Source of the DNA: a virus
IMG/VR virus record: IMGVR_UViG_3300003332_000015
Coordinates: 1 to 64,000 of that record
Length of the DNA stretch: 64,000 nucleotides
Reading direction: 5' to 3' (one strand)
The position numbers were made by a program, and so were the translations under genes. The stretch's first letter is position 1. Every line of letters begins with the position of its first letter. Shown in pieces: positions 1 through 39,381 of the stretch. Under the pieces are notes generated by a model, which was not told the origin of the DNA, searched no databases, and saw only the letters and a program-made list of their open reading frames with translations.

Positions 1-281
1 TCAAGTTTTACAGGATCCCCAGGTGCGTATCTCCCATCAGCAAAACTAATCCAAGACCATAATATCCATGTACCAGCTTGATCGAAATCATTTACATCTA
101 CTACATCATAATAGATATGACCAAACTGATCATTGTCAGAAGTCGCAGACCACTCACCTAAAGTACCGTCAGGTTTTTTATATTTAATTTTTCTTTCTAA
201 AACACCTGTTATGTCTACATTACAAATAAGTGTAATTCTAAACGATGTTTGCTGTACATATACTTTATCTCTATCACCCAT
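1..281 (-). CDS. BppU/Ig-like baseplate or fibre protein, N-terminal part
   Basis: This gene runs off the low edge of the window; 93 codons are visible from an ATG at 281 (MGDRDKVYVQQTSFRITLI). The visible part reads as a beta-rich domain with phrases such as KYKKPDGTLGEW and AGTWILWSWI, the pattern of BppU-like N-terminal domains in phage baseplate or fibre proteins. It follows the small gene at 291-446 by 9 bases and ends the fibre cluster visible here. A purine-rich stretch (TTAGGAAAG) lies upstream of the start. The fold assignment rests on pattern only. Confidence 0.6.
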   Translation of the reverse strand, partial: MGDRDKVYVQQTSFRITLICNVDITGVLERKIKYKKPDGTLGEWSATSDNDQFGHIYYDVVDVNDFDQAGTWILWSWISFADGRYAPGDPVKL

Positions 282-290
282 AATTCTTTC

Positions 291-446
291 CTAATCTATT
301 ACTGATTGTAATTTTTGTTCTTGTGTAATACTACTTAATAGTTGATCCTCTAAATGAATACTAGATAACAAAAGACCAGTAAGATTAATACTGGAATTTT
401 GTGTAGTTTGTAAATAAATATTACTATCTAATATTAGAGTATCCAT
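291..446 (-). CDS. Small repeat-containing protein, 51 aa
   Basis: A short ORF (MDTLILDSNIYLQTT...) with a GGAG about 10 bases before its ATG. It packs tightly between the 452-979 gene and the BppU-like gene. The C-terminal half contains a ten-residue periodicity: SINLTGLLLS, SIHLEDQLLS, SITQEQKLQS. That resembles, at half the period, the 20-residue repeats of the protein at 1077-2363. The function is unknown; a small fibre accessory protein is a guess from position. Confidence 0.6.
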   Translation of the reverse strand: MDTLILDSNIYLQTTQNSSINLTGLLLSSIHLEDQLLSSITQEQKLQSVID

Positions 447-451
447 TAACT

Positions 452-979
452 TTATACTCCATTAAATGTATGGTTTACAAAAACCTTTAATGTGTCATTA
501 CTTGTCTTAGTAAAAGCAGCAGCAAATATCCAGTGACATAGGGCAGAAGTAGGTGCAGTTAAACTGTCTACTATCGCTCCTTCAACTATGTCTACTATAT
601 TACCTTCTGCTAGTGCATAACTTGATCTCCAAGAAACAATGTCAATACCTGCTCCAGTATTATCTGAGTCAGGGTCATCTGTCTTAGGATAAGTTGCATC
701 TGTTGTATGTCTTCCTGCTCCGTTTTCTGTCGTAACATCGTCATCTGTTTTAGTTGCTGGAGTTGAACTAGTTCCAAGTCTCATACCTACATAGGCTGTT
801 GAGGGTGTTTCACCTGCTCCACTTTGAGCATAGTATTTATCACCGTCATTAGTAACAAGATTTTTTCCATAGACTATTTTATGTGGGAATATACCTCTAT
901 TAAGTATTGCTACTATATTATTTTTCTTGATATTAAATGCCCAAAATTGAATAATTTTTTCAATGATGTTTGTAACCAT
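452..979 (-). CDS. Tail-fibre-cluster structural protein, 175 aa
   Basis: The start ATG at 979 has a strong ribosome binding site (AAAGGAG, 7 bases upstream) and a late-promoter motif at 1001-1013. The N-terminus (MVTNIIEKIIQFWAF) precedes a region resembling phage fibre/appendage proteins: YYAQSGAGETPSTAYVGMRL and later GAGRHTTDATYPKTDDPD, with VDIVEGAIVDSL near the C-terminus. The end (DTLKVFVNHTFNGV) looks like a beta-strand. Location among fibre genes suggests a virion adhesin component. No enzymatic motif is seen. Confidence 0.75.
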   Translation of the reverse strand: MVTNIIEKIIQFWAFNIKKNNIVAILNRGIFPHKIVYGKNLVTNDGDKYYAQSGAGETPSTAYVGMRLGTSSTPATKTDDDVTTENGAGRHTTDATYPKTDDPDSDNTGAGIDIVSWRSSYALAEGNIVDIVEGAIVDSLTAPTSALCHWIFAAAFTKTSNDTLKVFVNHTFNGV

Positions 980-1077
980 TTAGATTCTCCTTTCTCTGTT
1001 ATTATATTAGTAATGCCTTCTTTTTTATTATGAAGAACTGCTGTCACTTTTTCACCTGTTCTTACTTTCTCAACCAT
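913..1077 (-). CDS. Possible small overlapping ORF, 54 aa
   Basis: An ATG at 1077 overlaps the stop of the 20-repeat gene (TAATG) and opens a 54-codon frame (MVEKVRTGEKVTAVL...). It passes through the late-promoter motif at 1001-1013 and runs 67 bases into the 452-979 gene. Translational coupling favours it; the long overlap and the embedded promoter argue against it. Confidence 0.3.
   Translation of the reverse strand: MVEKVRTGEKVTAVLHNKKEGITNIITEKGESKWLQTSLKKLFNFGHLISRKII
1001..1013 (-). promoter_or_regulatory. Late-promoter motif
   Basis: Minus-strand TTACTAATATAAT, 22 bases before the start of the 452-979 gene. It is an exact match to the motif shared by about 25 late genes here. Confidence 0.65.
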
Positions 1078-2363
1078 TATATATCACTCCTGAATATCTT
1101 TGAAATTGTTACATAAGATTTAAGTATTACATTTTCAAAAAACTTAGTTGCATCAAGAACAAACCGAACGCTAAGTCCTGCAACAACTTGTACAGTATCA
1201 CTAACCCATTGAATAATTGTTCTTGTAAAGAAATTATTATCATCTATAAATAGATTATTATTTATCATTCTATTTAGTATTCTGTTTCTTTGAGTGGTCT
1301 CAATGACTTCTACTATATTAGTAACAATACGAGTCATCACACGAGAACGGATTATAAATTCATTTATCCAAATAGAATCAATATGTATACGTATTAAAAC
1401 CCTTTGATAAAAACTAGTTGATATAATATTAATATTACTATTTATATATTTAAGTAAACTCTTTATATAGTAAGGTAGTGTTAAAATTTGAACAACAGAA
1501 TTTTTGATACGTCTCATAAACCTAGGTCGACTTACTACCTCAACAATCTGTACAAATGAATTTTGTAGTCGAGACATAACTCTTGACTTGAGTATACTCT
1601 CACTTATATTAATAGTAGTCGTTACTAATCTTTTTATAGTACGAAATCTTAATATTGTTTTCGAAATTTGAACAGTCATGTTTGCTATTTGTAATATAAA
1701 ACTTTGAAAGAAATTATTACTTGATATTTGTACAGTAGTATCTATAAGACGTGATATTCTTCTTGGTCTAAATATACTTTCATATATTGTTATTACTGAA
1801 TTCTGTATTCTTTTAATAACTCTTGGTCTTAATGTATCAGTTGATAGATAAACATACGCATCTACAATTCTGTTAAGTATTCTAGGACGTAAAACTTGTT
1901 CGTTTATATTCACAGCAGAATTATAAATTTGTAGGATGTAAGAGACAAAGTCACTGTTGGTTATAACAGACACCACATCTGATATTGAATGTGTTAGAAG
2001 ACGTGTATGATATGCTGTAGAAGAGATTTGGACTATGGTACTAGTTATACGAGACATTAAACGGAGTCTTAATATATTACTTGATATTTGAATAACTGTA
2101 TTTGATAGACGAGCAATACCACGAAACATTAGTAGACCACTAGAAATTTGTAACATCGATGTTACAAGACGAATAATTAATTTATTATAGTTATTTTCTT
2201 CTAAAATTTGTGCAGTATTTGAGATAGTTCTTTTGATCTCTAAAAGACGATTTGATATATCGTCTATCTCAAGAGTACTATTTATAATTTTTATATATGC
2301 TTCTAAAACTATTTTAGTTTTTAAAAATAATATTCCAGCATTATCATCAACAAACAGAAGCAT
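1077..2363 (-). CDS. Solenoid protein of twenty 20-residue repeats, 428 aa
   Basis: The start chosen is the ATG at 2363 (MLLFVDDNAG), 3 bases after the previous stop and preceded by AGAGGTG; a longer frame opens at 2411 but overlaps the upstream gene. From residue 24 the protein divides into exactly twenty consecutive 20-residue units, leaving only 23 leading and 5 trailing residues. Examples are ARLSNTVIQISSNILRLRLM and SRITSTIVQISSTAYHTRLL. Typical unit: [S/K/N]-R-[I/L] at 1-3, V-Q-I-S around 8-11, R-x-R at 16-18, and I/L/M at 20. This period suits a beta-solenoid with one coil per unit. It is rich in Arg, Ile and Ser. No known family is recognised; position suggests a fibre or adhesin. Confidence 0.8.
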   Translation of the reverse strand: MLLFVDDNAGILFLKTKIVLEAYIKIINSTLEIDDISNRLLEIKRTISNTAQILEENNYNKLIIRLVTSMLQISSGLLMFRGIARLSNTVIQISSNILRLRLMSRITSTIVQISSTAYHTRLLTHSISDVVSVITNSDFVSYILQIYNSAVNINEQVLRPRILNRIVDAYVYLSTDTLRPRVIKRIQNSVITIYESIFRPRRISRLIDTTVQISSNNFFQSFILQIANMTVQISKTILRFRTIKRLVTTTINISESILKSRVMSRLQNSFVQIVEVVSRPRFMRRIKNSVVQILTLPYYIKSLLKYINSNINIISTSFYQRVLIRIHIDSIWINEFIIRSRVMTRIVTNIVEVIETTQRNRILNRMINNNLFIDDNNFFTRTIIQWVSDTVQVVAGLSVRFVLDATKFFENVILKSYVTISKIFRSDI

Positions 2364-2365
2364 TA

Positions 2366-4366
2366 TTACACCTCTACTCTTCCACCACCAGTAAGGTCGA
2401 ATTGTTTCCATACAGTAGTTTCATCATCTTCATAGATAGTAATTATCTCACCAGACTTGGTAACTCTGTTTCCTAATAATGTTAGTATTTCAACTGCTTC
2501 ATTAGATGTCCATACTGTATTAGAAATAGTTTGAGCTCCAGGGAATACTCCTGATGTTAATACTGTACATCCTACTCCTGAATTATCTATTATAGCATTA
2601 TCAGGTATTCCTGCAATTCCAATTTCACCTGCTGTATTTGTAGAGTCTAATTCTATGTGACCACTACTAAAAGCAATAGTAGCTAATTTATCTGCATGAT
2701 TACAATTTTGTATTTTAATTGCTCCTGATAATTTTCTAATATTTAATTTAACATTGTTGTTAGAAGCACCCATGTCTATAGCATAATGAACATGAGAAGT
2801 TATAAATAAAGTAGACATAGATGCCATTGATACAATTGAATCCTCTGCACATACAACATCACCACCTATTCCACTTTCTTTGTATACTCCATTCAGTCCA
2901 GTTAGACCAGGAAGTAACATTACTTCTCTTGCTGTAATACTTCCAACTTGTAATCCTGTTAAACCAACTTTTATAAACTCAGATTTGTTAACATTCTGAC
3001 CATTAAAATCAATAGTTGGTAAACCAATACCTTCTATTGTAAAATTCTTTAGTGTTCTTTCTAGTTTTACATCAGATAAAAACATTAGTTTATACCAACC
3101 GACTCTCTCAGCAAAGTCAACCGCATCTGATATACTATTAAAAGGAGTACTACTCTTTCCATTACCATTTTCTAGTGATTCTGTATCTATATAAATCCAT
3201 TTTTCAGTATAGGAAATATCATTATAATATACTACAGAAGTTTCATTAACTAAAGTTACTCCTGTATTCCATGTAGTTGTTCCAGCAGGTAATAGATAAC
3301 CAGTAACACTGTCAATAACTTTTCCAACACCTCTACAAACTATAGTTCCATTTATTACTGTAGCAGCTTCTAATTTTACTTGACCACTGTTTAAATCAAC
3401 AGAAACTGAATCTGTTCCGGTTTTATTTGTTAATAGAACTCCACCATCATAAGCTCTTAAAGCAAGACTATTTCCACTTCCACCCATATTAATTTCAGGA
3501 GTTGATTGACCAGGTATTCCTGAGTAACAACCATGAATATGAGCTACTGCATTCCCACCTAAAGTGATAGGCCCATTAATCATACTGTGATTTATTTGTC
3601 CATTAAAATAAGCTAATTCATTTATAATACAATTATGAATTTCTGATCCACCATCTAAAACACCTGAAATTGTTAAAGTTTTAAATATTGCTTTTTGAGT
3701 AAGTGCTGAAGTAAGTATATGTAAAGAGGTACTAGTAGCTGAAGCACCGAATACTGTCATTCCTTCTATATTATTTGTACTGTCTAAAGTTGTATTTGAT
3801 AATAAGCCTACTTGAGCAAAACCTTTTTCAGTACAAATAGTAATAGCATCTTCCCAATTGTTAACAGGATATTCTCTTGTACCAGCTGGGTATTCTACTC
3901 CTGAGTTCCCAGAATCAATATCTAACCAAACAGCATCCTGATAAGCTGTATATTGTAATTCCTGTAACTGTTGAACAGTTGAATCTACTAGAGAACTTAC
4001 TGTATTAATAATCATTACACTATAAGTTCCAATCGTAGAAGTAAAAGGTGAAGTACCATCTTCTGAATAAACATTTCCATTTAATCTAAAAACATGATCA
4101 GCTTCATAAGGACGAATTTTCCAATCAGAGGCTAAGAAGAAAGTTGAACCAAGAGCTTTAGAACCAGGTAGAGCATCCCCACCTACAGGACGTACAGGAA
4201 ATACTCTACGTCTGAAGTTTTGATTAGCTAACCAATCTACTTTACCATCACTATATATATGTTCTTTAAAGTCAATATCAATAACCCAGTCCCCATCAAT
4301 TAAGACAGGAGCTGAAGTTATATTAATTATTTTATTAACTTCATCAAAGGTTACTTTCTCACCCAT
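2366..4366 (-). CDS. Tail fibre/spike protein with beta-helix regions, 666 aa
   Basis: The N-terminal ~100 residues (DGDWVIDIDFKEHIYSDGKV, then FPVRPVGGDAL) look like a virion-attachment domain. Two stretches then begin in parallel fashion: WLDIDSGN...YPVNNWEDAITIC near residue 160 and WIYIDTES...PFNSISDAVDF near residue 405. Each is followed by beta-helix-like sequence, suggesting an internal duplication of a pectate-lyase-like fold. The C-terminus (NRVTKSGEIITIYEDDET then WKQFDLTGGGRVEV) resembles ends of phage tail proteins. The start follows AAGGAAAATAATCA closely and lies 3 bases after the 4370-4837 gene. Confidence 0.75.
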   Translation of the reverse strand: MGEKVTFDEVNKIINITSAPVLIDGDWVIDIDFKEHIYSDGKVDWLANQNFRRRVFPVRPVGGDALPGSKALGSTFFLASDWKIRPYEADHVFRLNGNVYSEDGTSPFTSTIGTYSVMIINTVSSLVDSTVQQLQELQYTAYQDAVWLDIDSGNSGVEYPAGTREYPVNNWEDAITICTEKGFAQVGLLSNTTLDSTNNIEGMTVFGASATSTSLHILTSALTQKAIFKTLTISGVLDGGSEIHNCIINELAYFNGQINHSMINGPITLGGNAVAHIHGCYSGIPGQSTPEINMGGSGNSLALRAYDGGVLLTNKTGTDSVSVDLNSGQVKLEAATVINGTIVCRGVGKVIDSVTGYLLPAGTTTWNTGVTLVNETSVVYYNDISYTEKWIYIDTESLENGNGKSSTPFNSISDAVDFAERVGWYKLMFLSDVKLERTLKNFTIEGIGLPTIDFNGQNVNKSEFIKVGLTGLQVGSITAREVMLLPGLTGLNGVYKESGIGGDVVCAEDSIVSMASMSTLFITSHVHYAIDMGASNNNVKLNIRKLSGAIKIQNCNHADKLATIAFSSGHIELDSTNTAGEIGIAGIPDNAIIDNSGVGCTVLTSGVFPGAQTISNTVWTSNEAVEILTLLGNRVTKSGEIITIYEDDETTVWKQFDLTGGGRVEV

Positions 4367-4891: not shown

Positions 4892-5854
4892 TTATATTGG
4901 TTCAAATCTGTAACCTAAAGATATAAATGTTTTCCCTATATCTTCTTGTTTAAATAGATAAGGGTATTTACTGGTATGAATAAGTTTAATACAATAGTTT
5001 TCTTTAAACCAATTACTCATACAATAACCTGTTTTTTGTTTTGCTCCATGTAATGAAGGGAACTTACCAAAAGGAGTTATATAATACCCTTTGAACCAAG
5101 GATTGTTTTCTCCTGTTGAAGCTTCTTTTAATTTCTGTTTAGTTTTCTCTGATCTTACTCTTTTATAATTCCAGTGATCTTTTCCTTTAGGGCTAATATA
5201 ATCTTTAGTAACTCTTTTAGGTATTATTCTTTCTGCTTTTTCAAATGAAAAACCTAATTGACTCATAGTCTTGCCTATATCTTTTTCATTAAAAAGATTT
5301 TTATTTTGTTGATATCTTCTCTTTGATAATATAAGTGTATTACAGTCTTTACACCATTTAGTTAATATAGACCCCGATACTTTTGATTGTTGATTAGACG
5401 AATTAAATTTACCCCAAGGAGTTATAAAATAACCTTTAAATCTATAATTGTGAACTCCTGTTGCTTGTTTAGACATTAGATCTTTTGTTTCTTGTGTATT
5501 TTTAAATCCTAAATGATATTTATTACCTTTAAGTATATGTGATATTTTTTGTTTACTTTCTGCATAGAATCTTGAGTTAATTTTATAATCTCTATTATTA
5601 TTTAAATTATTTAATTGATTGTTCATTGCCCAAAAAGCATGTGCTAATTCTTTATTACCTTTATAAATTTTTGATAACATATGATGTGCTATGTAGTGTT
5701 CTCTAAAAGTTAAAAATATTCTATTTTCTTTTTCATGTCCTCCATCTAATGATAATGGAAATATATGATGTTCCTCATATCTAGATGTATCTTTATGTCG
5801 ATTCTGTAATTGTACTTTATTTATTAAATGTTTATATCTTCTTTTAAAATTCAT
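4892..5854 (-). CDS. HNH homing endonuclease with duplicated C-terminal module
   Basis: A free-standing homing endonuclease. The HNH core is at the N-terminus: EEHHIFPLSLDGG, then ENRIFLTFREHYIAHHML. Two copies of a target-recognition-like module follow, one opening with YFITPWGKF and ending IGKTMSQLGFSFE, the other opening with YYITPFGKF and ending IGKTFISLGYRFE. Enzymes of this class nick or cut DNA at unoccupied allelic sites and spread by repair. The start codon follows a hairpin with a promoter motif in its loop and the ribosome binding site in its 3' arm (5859-5891), an arrangement that would block translation of read-through RNA. Confidence 0.9.
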   Translation of the reverse strand: MNFKRRYKHLINKVQLQNRHKDTSRYEEHHIFPLSLDGGHEKENRIFLTFREHYIAHHMLSKIYKGNKELAHAFWAMNNQLNNLNNNRDYKINSRFYAESKQKISHILKGNKYHLGFKNTQETKDLMSKQATGVHNYRFKGYFITPWGKFNSSNQQSKVSGSILTKWCKDCNTLILSKRRYQQNKNLFNEKDIGKTMSQLGFSFEKAERIIPKRVTKDYISPKGKDHWNYKRVRSEKTKQKLKEASTGENNPWFKGYYITPFGKFPSLHGAKQKTGYCMSNWFKENYCIKLIHTSKYPYLFKQEDIGKTFISLGYRFEPI

Positions 5855-14575: not shown

Positions 14576-17500
14576 CTATCTTAAACTACTATTAAAATCC
14601 ATATTATTATCATTGGATATTAACCACTGTTTATTAGACGTACTTCTGTAATTGTAAACATCCATAAACGGTGTTGTATTATGTCCCATACCTAAATATA
14701 AACCATCAGATGAAAACGCAACACCGTTTATAGAACCAGTAGGAAGTGACACTAAATCAGGCATTTCTATAAAGACACCTTTATCAATCCTATACATGAG
14801 AAAATAAGGGGTTGCGGCCATTCCTATTATTAGTCTACTACCATCATCTGAAAATTTCAGATGGTAAATAGTACTCGATGGAGTATTATTGATAAGTATA
14901 CGTTCAAAAGCGTCATCTATGTATTTATATAACCATAAATATGTAGATGTCGCAGAACCTAAAGCTAAATAATTATCAGTTTTAGAAAACGCAATACCAC
15001 TAACAGATAAACTAGGTAATGTATCAAATGGACTAACAAGTGCTGTAAAAGTATCACCACTTCGTTTGTACACAATTACGTAGGGGTCCGATGACGTACC
15101 TACTGCTAAATACTTATTACCTAACGAAAACGATATAGACTCACCTTGGCCTACAGGCAACGTAGATGGATTAGGTAGCTTTATATATGTATCTCCGTTT
15201 CGTTTATAAATAGATACAGAGGGGCTAGTATCATGAGCTATCGCTAAATATACACCATCTGAAGAGAATTCAATCTCATTACTGTTACCAGTAGGAGGTG
15301 TATCTGGGGCATCAACAGTCAATCGTATAAATGTATCCCCAATCCGTTTATAAATATATAAAAAAGGTTCAGCTGACATTCCTACAACTAAATGTTCTCC
15401 ATCTGGTGAAAAGCGTGAAGACCATGCAGTTCCAATAGGTATTGTATCAGGTGCATCTGTCACTAATAGAGTAAGAGTACTGCCACTTCTTTTATAAATG
15501 CTTAAATAAGGTGATGACGTATTAGGAACTGCAAAGTATATGCTATCAGGCGAAAACGAAACCCTTCTCCCATTTCCAGTAGGTAAAGTAGAAGGATCAG
15601 CGAGTCTAGTTAAAGGGGCATCTACTATACCACTACCTTTATATGTTAATTCAATGTGATCACCTTTATGTAAGTGTAATGCACCTATCACCCCTTTAGT
15701 TGTAACAAACTTGTCTTTATAAGTAATACTATGTTCTACATCACTTTGAGTAATAGTAGAGATACTTGATGCTAAAATATCAATCACATCTCCTTCAACC
15801 GGATTTGTAGGTAATTGTAATTCCACATTATCTGTAATTAGATATCGATAGCCTGATTCTAAAGTAATGTCTGAACTAATCACTTCTCTTGATACAATCG
15901 CTGATTGTGGGTTAGCTAAATGCCTCTCTAAGATTGCACCATCCTGTATCCCTTGTCCTGTTCTTACATCATTAGTTAGCTGTTGTATTGCACTGCTTAT
16001 TGGAGTATTTATATCAATTGTACGTGGTATAAATGCATCTGGTATTGCTTCGAAGATCATAGACTGTTGTTGGAAGTATTGTTCTGCATCGTCACTGCTT
16101 GTAATAGTTGGTTTTACTCCGTCCCATGAGTATATACGGAGGTATTCAAAATCTGAATTGGCTTGATTTGTTCCTATATTACTATTTCCAATATGCAACA
16201 AAGGAAAAGTGGACGTTTTTACATCAGGATTCGATTGATCCCACAAAGTATATTCATGAATTGTTCCATCTTCTTCTATAATTATAAAATCTGAACTGTC
16301 TTGTTCACTTAAAACTAGATTTGCTAGAACTATAAATCTTAATTTTTGATTTAAGTTTATATAAGATGTTCCATCGTCAAATCTATTACCTACCAAATAA
16401 GATACTATTCCTCCATCTTGCCACGTTAAATAAAATCTATCAGTTGATCCTGCATTATAATTTAATTGGAATTTATGTGTTTCATCTAATTTCCAGAAAA
16501 ATAAAGCATGATAAATACTTGTATCATAAGCAAACTTAGGTTCTACAATCATATCAATAGCAAACTTATCCGGCATAGTAAAAGCTTCATCTATCACATC
16601 TGCTGAGTGTGTGCCGTCTACGAAGGGGAAGAGGGTTGTTCCTTCTGTTATTTGTATATTCTTCCAATATGTACCTACTCCGGCAGTTGCATCTATATAA
16701 TTAGCATAAGGATAAGCTGAAATAGAATCCCCAATATTTTCAACATCACAAATTACCCATAATTCAATAGTATTATCATCTAACCACTTATAAGTTATAT
16801 CAGTTAAAGCTACTATAAAATTAGATACAACATGAGTATCCCAATTTACACGAACACCACTATTATGCGCCGTATCAGAGTTCCAAATTTGTAACTGTGT
16901 GTCATTAGCAGTTCCACGTCTTGCTGTACCATGTACCACACATTTTTGTTGTGTGGAAATATAAGATGCCGAAACTAATCCATCATAGGTTGACCCTGCG
17001 GTCGTAATAAAATACCATGATGCTCCTCCCAATATTTTTTTAATTACAGTTACATTGTCTTTAGTTTTATCCCAATTCCCAGTAGTCAAATCAGTAGGAT
17101 CAGTAACAAGGTTTGTGTATTCTTCTCCAATGAACTTAGGTATTATTGTATTGTCTATTGCAGGACGTTTTGCATTAACGACTTCTACTTCAATGAAGTC
17201 ATTTATAATAAGATTATTATTACTTATTTGTACTATATCGGCACCTGTTATATAAGTTTTAGAAGCTCCTCTTTGTATTTCACATAATACAAATTTTGAA
17301 CCGTAACTTGGTGTTTCAGGACTTGCTGAGTCAACTCCTTCAAGTACACCAAAATTTCCATCTGACTTTAAATAAATTATATCATTTCTTCCTAAAGTTG
17401 TATCAGAAATAATAGCTGAGTTTCCTGAACTTACTACAATACTTTCCAGTCCTGTATTGATTGTTCCACCTTGAATTAAAACAGTATTTGTATATGGCTC

Positions 17501-17971
17501 TTGTGGTAATACTTTGAATTCAGAATTTTTAATAATATCTTCAGTAATAAGTACTGTACTTTTTCTACTATAATCAAAAAATGTTTCAAGAGTTGTAACA
17601 TCGTAAACAGTTCTACCAAAAATTAAATCGTCTACATCTAAACTTGCATAGTCAACCATTAAAATATCAGCATAATTATTTTCAGTATTACTCCAATCAA
17701 ATCGTAGTATACAATAAGTAGCACTTGATGCAACTAAAAGCTCTATTATACTTGCAGTTTTAATTCTTACACTAACACCAGTTGTTGAATCTTCAACATA
17801 TACTATAAAAGGAGCTAAACTAATATGAGTAGGGTCAACATAAGTTAATCCTCCTCCTTCATATATTCCTTTTTGAGTTATTTTATAATTTAATTTATTA
17901 AAGTTTTCAGATTTACCTGGTTCTTTAAAATCGAACGAGATAGTCTGAGTTCCATAGTCAGTAACACCCAT
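14576..17971 (-). CDS. Tail fibre with lectin-like domain and seven-bladed beta-propeller, 1131 aa
   Basis: The N-terminus (MGVTDYGTQTISFDFKEPGK) is paralogous to the 10445-13426 fibre. The middle carries a concanavalin/LamG-like domain (KFQLNYNAGSTDRFYLTWQ). The last ~330 residues hold seven repeats of about 45 residues, each built as VSFSPDSIYFAV then SIYKRSGSTLTLL or a close variant (FSPDGEHLVVGM; FSSDGVYLAIAH; FSLGNKYLAVGT; FSKTDNYLALGS; FSDDGSRLIIGM; FSSDGLYLGMGH). Seven blades make a closed WD40/YVTN-like propeller, a plausible receptor-binding tip. Between lies a short helical region (SAIQQLTNDVRTGQGIQ). A degenerate late-promoter motif precedes the gene. Confidence 0.85.
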   Translation of the reverse strand: MGVTDYGTQTISFDFKEPGKSENFNKLNYKITQKGIYEGGGLTYVDPTHISLAPFIVYVEDSTTGVSVRIKTASIIELLVASSATYCILRFDWSNTENNYADILMVDYASLDVDDLIFGRTVYDVTTLETFFDYSRKSTVLITEDIIKNSEFKVLPQEPYTNTVLIQGGTINTGLESIVVSSGNSAIISDTTLGRNDIIYLKSDGNFGVLEGVDSASPETPSYGSKFVLCEIQRGASKTYITGADIVQISNNNLIINDFIEVEVVNAKRPAIDNTIIPKFIGEEYTNLVTDPTDLTTGNWDKTKDNVTVIKKILGGASWYFITTAGSTYDGLVSASYISTQQKCVVHGTARRGTANDTQLQIWNSDTAHNSGVRVNWDTHVVSNFIVALTDITYKWLDDNTIELWVICDVENIGDSISAYPYANYIDATAGVGTYWKNIQITEGTTLFPFVDGTHSADVIDEAFTMPDKFAIDMIVEPKFAYDTSIYHALFFWKLDETHKFQLNYNAGSTDRFYLTWQDGGIVSYLVGNRFDDGTSYINLNQKLRFIVLANLVLSEQDSSDFIIIEEDGTIHEYTLWDQSNPDVKTSTFPLLHIGNSNIGTNQANSDFEYLRIYSWDGVKPTITSSDDAEQYFQQQSMIFEAIPDAFIPRTIDINTPISSAIQQLTNDVRTGQGIQDGAILERHLANPQSAIVSREVISSDITLESGYRYLITDNVELQLPTNPVEGDVIDILASSISTITQSDVEHSITYKDKFVTTKGVIGALHLHKGDHIELTYKGSGIVDAPLTRLADPSTLPTGNGRRVSFSPDSIYFAVPNTSSPYLSIYKRSGSTLTLLVTDAPDTIPIGTAWSSRFSPDGEHLVVGMSAEPFLYIYKRIGDTFIRLTVDAPDTPPTGNSNEIEFSSDGVYLAIAHDTSPSVSIYKRNGDTYIKLPNPSTLPVGQGESISFSLGNKYLAVGTSSDPYVIVYKRSGDTFTALVSPFDTLPSLSVSGIAFSKTDNYLALGSATSTYLWLYKYIDDAFERILINNTPSSTIYHLKFSDDGSRLIIGMAATPYFLMYRIDKGVFIEMPDLVSLPTGSINGVAFSSDGLYLGMGHNTTPFMDVYNYRSTSNKQWLISNDNNMDFNSSLR

Positions 17972-30376: not shown

Positions 30377-30898
30377 TTAAATTATGTTATCATCTAATGC
30401 TAAGAAACCAAAAGTTACATTAACAATAATTGGATCACCACTACTATAATCAAAACTAATGTCTCCAACTGTCATTGGAAAACAACCTTTAAAATTCCAA
30501 CTACCAAAACCTGGTATAGGAATATTCTCTGGAGTAACTGCCCAAACTGTCATGTTTACTCTGTTGTTTGAAAGTACATTATCAGGAGCAATAACTCCTG
30601 TATAACTATTTGCTACTTTATTTTTCCAAGCTACTAACCCTTTATATACAAGCCAGTTTCTATCAACTCTTAAATCAAAACTAAATTCATTCGGTGCTTC
30701 AATCTTACCAGAAGGTTTTGTGATCTTCTGTGTTTTATGATGAACCTCATAAGTACTCGTCCCTGTTGCAGGAACAGTAAAGTTTTGAATTCTTAAAAGA
30801 GTAGAAGTAATGTCGTCTATAAATGCTATAGGTTCAATTGATACATCAAATAAATTCGATAGTGCATCATCCCCCATTTGATAAATTTTATCTACCAT
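30377..30898 (-). CDS. 19: Tail tube protein (gp19-like), 173 aa
   Basis: Downstream of the sheath, as in T4. Tube signatures: NLFDVSIEPIAFIDDI at the start, ATGTSTYEVHHKTQKITKPS, PNEFSFDLRVDRNWLVYKGL, and a C-terminal FPMTVGDISFDYSSGDPI followed by VNVTFGFLAL. Hexameric rings of this protein stack to form the inner tube through which DNA passes. A degenerate promoter motif lies at 30923-30935. Confidence 0.85.
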   Translation of the reverse strand: MVDKIYQMGDDALSNLFDVSIEPIAFIDDITSTLLRIQNFTVPATGTSTYEVHHKTQKITKPSGKIEAPNEFSFDLRVDRNWLVYKGLVAWKNKVANSYTGVIAPDNVLSNNRVNMTVWAVTPENIPIPGFGSWNFKGCFPMTVGDISFDYSSGDPIIVNVTFGFLALDDNII

Positions 30899-31839
30899 TA
30901 GTATATCTCCTTATTCTGTATATTAATATTAGTAAAAATTTCATCAAAAGGAATATTTTTATTTTGTTTTATTCTTAAAAAAGTATAATCCTTTAATTCA
31001 TTACTACTCATAATTTTATTTTGTCGTTCTTGGTCTTTCTTTTTAAGTTGACCTTTTGCTGTAAAATGGTATGACTCATCCCATTCCATAATTAATTTTA
31101 AATCATTATTAACATAATCTAAAAAATATCTATCTTTAGTACAGTACTCTTTACCTTTATTTCCGTATTGTCCATTGGTGTTTAATCTTTCATCAAAGTA
31201 ATCAAAAAATTCACAAGCGTAATGATTAAAACGTCCACCACCTTTAAGGTTAAGTTTTCGTTCCTTAGCTTTTTTTATACCCGATATTTCCTCATAAGTT
31301 TTACCTTTTTTGGCTTTACTCATTTTAAGTTTTATTTCTTGTGCTTTTTCAGAACCATACTCTTCTTCCATAGATACACCTTTTCTTTTAGTGTTTCTAC
31401 CAAAAAGAGTTTTGGAAATTTTATTACGAACCTCTAATTTTTTAGCTGAATTATTTTTACCTTTTTGTCTTTCAGACTGTTTTCTTTTAAATTCTTCTGT
31501 GTGTTTAGGGACTTTTATTAATCCTTGTTCCCTTAAACTAGTTTTATATTCTTCAGTACAAATTCTTGAACAAGTTTTATAATATCCTATTTTATAACTT
31601 TCATATACTACATTACCTTGACCACAAATTAAACATTTTTTATTTGTTTTTATATCATTAAGTATACAATAAATTCTCTCACCTATTCTTGATTCACTAG
31701 ATAAAAAATGAGTTTCTTTATAAATTTCTTTTAGTCTTTCTTCAAAATTATTTCGTAAATATTTAGGGAGACCTGCATTGATACTCCCTGTTCGAGTAAA
31801 AGTATGTTTATCTGTTAAAAGAAACTCTTTAATAGTCAC
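30898..31839 (-). CDS. PD-(D/E)XK-type homing endonuclease with zinc finger, 313 aa
   Basis: A zinc-finger-like region (C69, C72, C90, C94) precedes NUMOD3-like basic repeats (residues ~110-185). The C-terminal domain has RYFLDYVNNDLKLIMEWDES: D241, then E252-x-D254, the spacing of Vsr/PD-(D/E)XK nucleases. The 48594-49667 protein has the same architecture. It starts with GTG at 31839, overlaps the tube start at its end, and is inserted cleanly between sheath and tube genes. Confidence 0.8.
   Translation of the reverse strand: MTIKEFLLTDKHTFTRTGSINAGLPKYLRNNFEERLKEIYKETHFLSSESRIGERIYCILNDIKTNKKCLICGQGNVVYESYKIGYYKTCSRICTEEYKTSLREQGLIKVPKHTEEFKRKQSERQKGKNNSAKKLEVRNKISKTLFGRNTKRKGVSMEEEYGSEKAQEIKLKMSKAKKGKTYEEISGIKKAKERKLNLKGGGRFNHYACEFFDYFDERLNTNGQYGNKGKEYCTKDRYFLDYVNNDLKLIMEWDESYHFTAKGQLKKKDQERQNKIMSSNELKDYTFLRIKQNKNIPFDEIFTNINIQNKEIY
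30923..30935 (-). promoter_or_regulatory. Degenerate late-promoter motif
   Basis: Minus-strand TTACTAATATTAA, inside the end of the endonuclease gene and 25 bases before the tube start. Confidence 0.45.
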
Positions 31840-37396: not shown

Positions 37397-37579
37397 TTAT
37401 CCTATTAAATTTCTTTGCATCGTATTTATAAATTGACTCATAAATTCTTTATCATTAGGTAATACATCTAAAACTGCTTGTGCAAATTGTGATCCACCGT
37501 TAGGATTCCTCATAAGAAGTTTTACCATATTTTGCATAATAATATCATCTTCTTTTAGACTTTTCTTTATTACTTTCAT
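37397..37579 (-). CDS. Small helical protein with possible targeting N-terminus, 60 aa
   Basis: The start MKVIKKSLKE fits a short N-terminal peptide ending L-K-E, like the neighbouring protein at 37579-39381. The rest is amphipathic helix (MQNMVKLLMRNPNGGSQF; DKEFMSQFINTMQRNLIG). It overlaps the upstream stop (TAATG), has AAGGAAA as ribosome binding site, and is followed by the tagged 36799-37392 gene. Packaging in the head is a guess. Confidence 0.6.
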   Translation of the reverse strand: MKVIKKSLKEDDIIMQNMVKLLMRNPNGGSQFAQAVLDVLPNDKEFMSQFINTMQRNLIG

Positions 37580-39381
37580 TACATAAATTTCCTTAATATA
37601 CCTATTAAAATTTTAATTATTGGTTTTGGTATTGGTAATGAGTCTGATCTATTTTCCATTTGATCTAACATATAAGTATAATAAGCTTTATTAGCTATAA
37701 AATACTTTGTCATTAAACCAGCTGGAGTATCTACTACAATACCACCATCTTTTTCCACTGAGTGTACTACATCACCAAATATATTTTTTATTCTTGGTAT
37801 CAGAGTTTTAACAAATAATTTAGGAGGTTGTTTAAATTCTCCTCCACTTCTTTTCTCTAACATAATAGCTAGATTCTGTGTCATTACTCCCCATATAGGA
37901 TCTCGACCTACTTCTACTTGCATTTGTGTAAATGCACCGATAATAGATTTAGGAGAACCAAAAGTTGCTACTAATTTATACATACCACTATTTTGTTTTC
38001 TAGCAGCTATTCCACCTGTTTTATCTCCAAAGAAAGTCCATGCTACTGCACGACTTTCAAACTTACCTTGATCCCAAGAAGCACCTACTGCTTTTTGGTA
38101 TGAGTCTCTGAAATTAGAATATAGAGCATCTTGCTCTTGTTTTGATAAATCATAGTATTTAAAACTTTCATTAAGTACATGAGAATATTTAATATTATAA
38201 AGTCCATCAATAATACTATCTATATAAACAGATTCATTAAGAGGAGGTTCTGTTGAAATTATAAATCTTTTAGCTGTTTTAATTTCACCTGTTTTCCATC
38301 TAGGAATAGATGTTCCCATTGTACCAATATCTTCTTTCCATTCACCACCTGACCAAATACCGTCATGCCATATTCCACCAGAAAAAATACCACCTAGAAA
38401 ATTACCGTAACTCCAATCTCCACCACTAAAATTTCCTTTGTGCCATTTACCTTTTTTCCATATACCATTTAACCAAACATCACCGTACCATTGACCTGAT
38501 ACCCAAGTACCCTTATTCCAAATAAATTCTTTATCTTCTGATATAATAATTTCAGCTTCTTCTACTTTAGCTTTCACAAACCAAGGAAAATCTTTTTGAA
38601 AATCTTTAAGACTATACCCTTCAGGGGTATCAATAGACTTTACAGTACCTTTAAAATAGTCTAATAAAATTTCAGCTTCATCTGCTCTTGACTGTACTTT
38701 ACCCATGTCCTTTGCAGGTATCCATCCACCATTAGGTAGTTTTTTACCTGTAGAAATTACACCGTCACTTCCTACTTCATAGTCAATAATTTTACCGTCA
38801 TAATCAGTTTTAGCATATTCAAAAGGAATAGCAGTATCATAAGCATATGAAACTACAACATTACCATCATGATTACCGGTAAATATAATTCCTCTTACCC
38901 CTCGAATACTACATATACCATTTTTTACATAAGAATCAACAAAATTATTATAAGCAACGTCTGCTGAGTAAGATGGTTCATCTAATGTTTTCTCTAACAT
39001 CTTTGACCAATTAAATATATTTCTAGGTAAATCAATAGTATCATGATAAATCCTATAATGATCAATTAACTGGTCATTCAATGTATATTTATCACCAAAA
39101 ACAGATTTCGAAATATTATAATCAAAAATAAGTAAATTTTTAGGGTTAATACGACACTTTAATAATGTATCACCATAGTGTGTCATATTACTTTTTAGTT
39201 GTGAAGAAAGATCATATGTTAAATAAAATCCTTTTCCATACATTGATCCATACCCAGGTTTAAATCCAGTATCAATAATTCCTAGAGCATCTCCCATACT
39301 TGTTCTATGATAAGCAAGTAAATAATTACTATGATATGTTATGGATTCTTTTAATACTGTTCCAAAATCTATTTTTCTCAT
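37579..39381 (-). CDS. ADP-ribosyltransferase-like protein with W-x-x-G repeat domain, 600 aa
   Basis: Residues ~20-60 (LLAYHRTSMGDALGIIDTGF, then PGYGSMYGKGFYLTYDLSSQ) resemble the ART/PARP core: His in the first strand, GFYLT-type Tyr strand after a glycine-rich loop. FDYNISKSVFGD and VSYAYDTAIPFEYAK follow as in phage ART-like proteins. Residues ~285-350 are repeats of W-x-x-G-x-W form (WNKGTWVSGQWYGDVWLNG; GGDWSYGNFLGGIFSGG). The C-terminal half is helical and unassigned. The start MRKIDFGTVLKE ends L-K-E, a candidate prohead-protease site, so it may be an injected enzyme. Catalytic Glu not located. Confidence 0.55.
   Translation of the reverse strand: MRKIDFGTVLKESITYHSNYLLAYHRTSMGDALGIIDTGFKPGYGSMYGKGFYLTYDLSSQLKSNMTHYGDTLLKCRINPKNLLIFDYNISKSVFGDKYTLNDQLIDHYRIYHDTIDLPRNIFNWSKMLEKTLDEPSYSADVAYNNFVDSYVKNGICSIRGVRGIIFTGNHDGNVVVSYAYDTAIPFEYAKTDYDGKIIDYEVGSDGVISTGKKLPNGGWIPAKDMGKVQSRADEAEILLDYFKGTVKSIDTPEGYSLKDFQKDFPWFVKAKVEEAEIIISEDKEFIWNKGTWVSGQWYGDVWLNGIWKKGKWHKGNFSGGDWSYGNFLGGIFSGGIWHDGIWSGGEWKEDIGTMGTSIPRWKTGEIKTAKRFIISTEPPLNESVYIDSIIDGLYNIKYSHVLNESFKYYDLSKQEQDALYSNFRDSYQKAVGASWDQGKFESRAVAWTFFGDKTGGIAARKQNSGMYKLVATFGSPKSIIGAFTQMQVEVGRDPIWGVMTQNLAIMLEKRSGGEFKQPPKLFVKTLIPRIKNIFGDVVHSVEKDGGIVVDTPAGLMTKYFIANKAYYTYMLDQMENRSDSLPIPKPIIKILIGILRKFM

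Follow-up and report, generated by a model that had tools for sequence, protein, structure and literature searches.

A 20-residue repeat family at the ends of phage tail operons, with a probable role as an adjustable stalk of tail-borne adhesins

A 428-aa protein encoded close to one end of an uncultured virus record (IMG/VR IMGVR_UViG_3300003332_000015; 146,575 bases, of which the first 64,000 nucleotides are here termed the window) is built from a 20-residue unit that it shares with a large family of proteins from other uncultured viruses. We consider it rather likely that these proteins constitute the adjustable-length stalk of a tail-borne adhesin, a virion component for host adsorption that would consist of stacked, mainly β rungs and be encoded within a gene module; we infer this role because of domain fusions, synteny, length variation, and gene position. 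The record contains PHROG matches to sheath, tube, tape measure, baseplate hub and wedge, head protease, and portal proteins, by which it belongs to a contractile-tailed, T4-like phage. The repeat gene is located toward the downstream end of the baseplate/fiber operon, on the same strand as the tail genes and with genes for a gp6-like wedge protein, hub, sheath, tube, and tape measure upstream of it. This location agrees with the initial annotation of the product as a phage structural protein.

The repeat protein is strongly basic (pI 10.7; charge of about +26 at pH 7). It starts at an ATG at position 2363 with a GAGGTG five bases 5' of it; an alternative ATG at 2411 was rejected, as the resulting ORF would overlap the upstream gene. 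The 20-residue period is strong (z of about 11), and autocorrelation with the BLOSUM62 matrix yields peaks at lags 20, 40, 60, 80, 100, and 120 (z 8.5 to 13.1), with every other lag at z ≤3.0. A 20-column unit profile locates the units without gaps, in keeping with the original description of exactly twenty units of 20 residues; that number is nominal, since units 1 and 20 are weak matches to the consensus, and 18 good units flanked by two degenerate ends is the safer description (Table 1). Nor is twenty a special count, with relatives carrying from 8 to more than 31 units. Amino acid identity in the array is 21% at lag 20 versus about 7% off-period, and synonymous codon identity between units is 0.448, precisely the random expectation of 0.448. 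The repeat is therefore old and maintained at the protein level, which bears out the earlier view that selection keeps the period in the absence of a DNA repeat, and both recent tandem duplication and a DNA-level artifact are ruled out as its source. We looked for a second copy of the repeat protein elsewhere in the same phage genome and found none.

Table 1. Coordinates of the repeat protein, its units, and the neighboring genes in the window
Feature	Position	Strand	Description
428-aa repeat protein	1077..2363	(-)	23-aa leader + 20 units x 20 aa + 5-aa end
Well-formed units 2-19 (residues 44-403)	1155..2234	(-)	Unit table and profile coverage
Variant unit 2 (every-fourth type, no R-x-R)	2175..2234	(-)	Phase table
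Variant unit 6	1935..1994	(-)	Phase table
Variant unit 10	1695..1754	(-)	Phase table
Variant unit 14	1455..1514	(-)	Phase table
Variant unit 18	1215..1274	(-)	Phase table
666-aa upstream structural protein	2366..4366	(-)	N-terminal ~139 aa common to Virus Rctr197k, S-TIP28, and ctPCi537 structural cassettes
54-aa ORF between the repeat and 175-aa genes	913..1077	(-)	
175-aa module partner	452..979	(-)	phrog_5417, E=3.1e-7
51-aa ORF with apparent, unproven ten-residue SSIxL repeats	291..446	(-)	By eye
Third module gene, cut by the end of the record	1..281	(-)	Homologs in L079 and L086

The array has a further level of order that the initial annotation missed, namely, a super-period of four units (80 aa). 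The strongest autocorrelation lag is 80, above 20, and permutation of the unit order supports a four-unit period (p = 0.001) and none of two, three, five, or six units. Every fourth unit, from unit 2 to unit 18, lacks the R-x-R motif and has aromatic or hydrophobic residues at that site; the array is thus more aptly viewed as about five four-unit blocks. Several divergent relatives (L014, L018, L020, L022, L023, L025, and L089) show, over the whole or part of their arrays, a 20, 20, 20, 22 spacing with a 22-residue fourth unit, so the every-fourth order of the window protein, in which all units have 20 residues, has a counterpart there. The special fourth unit is not universal, as L053, L079, and L090 differ. 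The expectation of regular spacing in homologs thus stands for the 20-residue rung but, in several of them, not for every fourth unit. The neighboring 51-aa ORF had been credited with a related ten-residue period; three SSIxL-like copies can be seen by eye, but the ORF did not exceed the threshold of z > 4.5 in our periodicity scan of the window ORFs. A separate ten-residue periodicity (z 5.7) was found in a 600-aa ORF at 37579-39381 that has no PHROG match.

Searches with the window repeat protein revealed no significant match in Pfam, NCBIfam, or PHROGs, and nothing was recovered by tblastn against 50,697 GenBank phages or by a homology search of viral_contigs with this protein alone. The alignment of its units is too diverse to serve as a search pattern. 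A degenerate DNA pattern with fixed repeat spacing, run against IMG/VR, retrieved one viral contig (L014), which codes for a 608-aa protein in which the same 20-residue unit is arrayed C terminally, behind an N-terminal β-helix-type head. Use of the L014 array as a query, followed by a second spacing-anchored DNA pattern, brought the set to about 50 proteins with a 20-residue period (z 6 to 31 in most) and the unit consensus xR(I/V)(I/V)(N/D)E(T/S)(V/L)x(I/V)xEx(V/I)xRxxxL, in which the frequency of the two glutamates is somewhat inflated because the search pattern demanded both. The set includes a giant member, a 3326-aa ORF with 17 profile matches to the unit on a 78-kb viral contig (L104:2150-12130).

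A family profile of 28 segments from which the window protein was left out matches the window ORF with an E value of 1.2e-52 (175.7 bits), versus a best score of 41 bits among 500 column-permuted controls that keep period and composition. The family position matrix also locks to the register originally proposed, with a phase sum of -21 versus -557 for the best of 1000 shuffles. On these comparisons, the window protein is a member of the family beyond mere periodicity, and it retains R2, the hydrophobic positions 3, 8, 10, and 20, and R16/R18, i.e., both the hydrophobic and the basic ladders. The uncultured-virus relatives (L014, L018-L027, L039-L096, and others) match it in unit, register, downstream partner, and position in the tail operon; most of them differ by their glutamates in columns 6 and 12 and many by an N-terminal head, whereas the window protein is headless and has largely lost these acidic ladders. 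The closest relative by gene neighborhood, L080, is likewise a headless repeat protein (409 aa).

Four family queries gave no match among GenBank phages, and a search among plasmids gave none either; in 297 genomes from the phylum of the L035 Desulfobacterales bin, just two matches reached E ≤ 1e-8. The sole PHROG that touches the family, on the matches obtained, is phrog_12240 (unknown function), which matches the 20- and 18-residue stalks of L018, L025, and L029 (E 2e-3 to 1e-10) but not the window protein itself. The open-access literature searched yielded no published description of the repeat family. Hence, the initial statement that no known phage family has this period holds for curated and GenBank-phage data but gives way to a large family from uncultured viruses that shares the unit. 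Stalk repeats as such are already known from phage fibers; the present unit and its partners, together with their spread across tail types, apparently lack a Pfam or NCBIfam model or a GenBank-phage match.

Structure prediction with AlphaFold2 on the window protein as a single sequence was uninformative (pLDDT 35). For the relative L053, with a nearly gapless family alignment of 29 rows that included the window protein, the best model is a regular all-β repeat with a strand in columns 1-10, a turn, a strand in columns 13-17, and a second turn; this model scores low in confidence, at a pLDDT of 56 and a pTM of 0.43, and of the five models produced, three fall below 25. A Foldseek search with this model detected non-significant similarities, mainly to β-helices, and an uncharacterized phage protein at E = 0.015; nothing among solved chains was matched by profile. 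On the basis of the model, the unit is likely to adopt β structure with one 20-residue unit per rung, and a β rod is our best guess for the array. The previously suggested β-solenoid coil per unit thus gains an all-β model from the family alignment, at a pLDDT of 56 and with no significant Foldseek match.

Two other folds bear on this assignment. An intertwined trimeric fiber, comparable to triple β-helix or triple β-spiral shafts, instead of a single-chain solenoid, is a serious contender, if not the arrangement we favor: tailspikes with β-helix heads are usually trimers, and low confidence in a monomer model would be expected for a chain that needs two partners. Against this, the monomer model stacks regularly on its own, and searches by sequence and by fold brought up no similar solved triple-stranded shaft. 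An α/β solenoid, with a short strand in columns 5-11 followed by an amphipathic helix in columns 12-4, is unlikely. The hydrophobic columns of the family (14, 17, 20, and 3-4) are spaced by three to four residues, columns 18-4 have a high helical moment, and the single-sequence model contains helices, though at a pLDDT of 35. However, the model with the family alignment has strands only, column 19 is most often glycine (28%), and the β propensity of the window protein (1.15) exceeds its α propensity (1.00); hydrophobic moments do not separate α from β in columns 13-20 and 1-4.

With respect to the acidic ladders, the window protein appears from its unit composition to be a divergent member that has largely lost them: acidic residues occupy columns 6 and 12 in 96% and 92% of family units, values partly inflated by the search pattern, compared to 17% and 44% in the window protein. 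Its arginine ladders at columns 2, 16, and 18 are retained, and its net charge per unit (+1.8) is the highest among the 37 proteins tested. This charge, with the high pI, might point to electrostatic action, such as the binding of an anionic cell-surface polymer or nucleic acid, as opposed to a passive stalk. We regard such a role as doubtful, for the net charge per unit varies across the family from -3.3 to +1.2 and is thus not a conserved family function.

The architectures of the relatives also favor a stalk. In different relatives, the head in front of the same 20-residue stalk is a right-handed β-helix, a LamG-like domain, a set of FQxNxFQ repeats, or a Gly_rich_2 domain (E = 8.8e-16), and in others the stalk is headless. 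The LamG, FQxNxFQ, and most β-helix heads were called by reading the sequence, with weak Pfam support for the β-helix head in L035 and L025 only. Among relatives whose stalks are 65-77% identical, the number of units is 8, 14, 16, 17, or 20. The same head family also carries stalks with an 18- or 15-residue period: in L029, L030, L031, L033, and L035, β-helix heads ending in DIGADEY are fused to 18- or 15-residue repeats of other sequence. The occurrence of DIGADEY-type heads on different stalks suggests wholesale stalk exchange. A point against the stalk reading is that the window protein itself is headless.

The repeat gene is part of a conserved module. In 13 other records, the gene immediately 3' of the repeat gene encodes a homolog of the 175-aa partner, and in seven more such a homolog lies upstream on the same strand; several of these records are closely related, which brings the independent cases nearer to eight. 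The window partner is 43% identical to its L014 homolog (E=5e-42) and 61% identical to that of L080, and one homolog matches the tail-fiber PHROG phrog_4176 (E=4.9e-5). In L079 and L086, the repeat gene is immediately followed by a homolog of the truncated third gene (43-45% identity), and L102, L103, and L105 encode in succession the repeat protein, a protein of the 175-aa type, and, in the third position, a protein of 114-178 aa. Relatives show a similar short gap between the repeat and 175-aa genes, occupied in L105 by a 79-aa ORF; no homolog of the 54-aa ORF sequence in the window was found. The short ORF at L105:11971-12210 has a hydrophobic N-terminal stretch followed by INETLKMNENV, a single unit-like copy of the repeat motif.

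Upstream of the module are a Baseplate_J protein in L105 and a Phage-tail_3 protein in L102; the module therefore occurs with different tail types, and both contractile and apparently non-contractile tail modules carry the repeat protein. The gp6-like protein of the window has no match in any of the records of 18 relatives, many of them fragments, a result pointing away from simple co-inheritance of module and tail. A tail-sheath search returned four short relatives, and the repeat protein had no match in any of them. Several large structural genes 5' of the repeat gene have relatives in a cassette of Virus Rctr197k, cyanophage S-TIP28, and phage ctPCi537; these three records yielded no repeat protein. 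The 666-aa protein has no detectable homology to the heads of the relatives, and homology searches of viral_contigs with it and with the neighbor at 14576-17971 gave nothing usable. A few relatives lack a recognized tail gene in the flank examined, as would fit a non-virion or head-associated protein merely adjoining tail genes, but this is very improbable given the shared strand and operon with tail genes, the position after baseplate or tail-tip genes in two tail types, the fusions to spike-type β-helix heads, and the tail-fiber PHROG matched by a homolog of the module partner.

Other genes in these operons include two HNH endonuclease-like genes within the tail operon of the window (4892-5854, judged from sequence alone, and 30898-31839, which matches phrog_12434 at E=6.7e-4), both likely to be homing endonucleases, and an 84-aa ORF that, by its sequence, resembles an acyl carrier protein and lies between the tail-tip and fiber genes of L102 (9943-10197).

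Among known systems, the pentapeptide-repeat and hexapeptide (LbH) β-helices likewise have about 18-20 residues per coil and a hydrophobic ladder. The window protein differs in having neither an A(D/N)LXX nor a hexapeptide signature in its units and no Pfam match, and identity as a pentapeptide repeat protein was rejected on these grounds; similarity to GlmU-type helices in Foldseek is not significant. Triple β-spiral and triple β-helix shafts share the proposed role, a stalk made from short repeats, but our searches revealed no match to them in sequence or fold, and the window protein is low in glycine and proline. In Synechococcus phage BUCT-ZZ01 (ON615601), protein UTS51997 (L097:2657-4480) is encoded just after gp6 in a T4-like baseplate region and has C-terminal short SD-rich repeats, a placement and organization like those in the window. 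Its N-terminal domain is a different one, with matches to virion structural and baseplate-wedge proteins of cyanophages. Its period is instead 18 residues (z 10.4), and its similarity to the repeat stalks no more than hints at homology (E=0.1). This gene may be a cultured handle on a wider stalk class.

On the basis of these observations, we propose that the repeat array forms a rod-like stalk or stand-alone fiber segment of stacked, mainly β, 20-residue rungs that supply its length and stiffness, with every fourth rung possibly a structural variant that sets a larger twist or contact. In relatives, the rod is fused C terminal to a presumed receptor-binding or anchoring head and ends in a short, often basic tail, the head supplying the receptor binding or anchoring; in the window phage, it stands alone behind the separate 666-aa structural protein. 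Rod length would be set by the number of rungs and change as units are gained or lost. The two downstream products, the 175-aa phrog_5417 protein and a small third protein, may cap or attach the rod, and the three genes would then form a transferable module that closes the tail operon. More tentatively, and as a possibility we would not count on, the unit could represent a new fiber fold of 20-residue β rungs that bears arginine/glutamate ladders and repeats superhelically every four rungs; unrelated contractile and non-contractile phages would use it as an exchangeable stalk of tunable length, which travels together with two partner genes.

Tail spikes and fibers decide which bacteria can be infected, and their stalks decide reach and flexibility. 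The family was missed by ordinary similarity search and recovered by a DNA pattern anchored on repeat spacing. It offers an anchor for annotating the adhesion modules of uncultured phages, including the two unknown partner genes, and its unit may supply a simple repeat scaffold.
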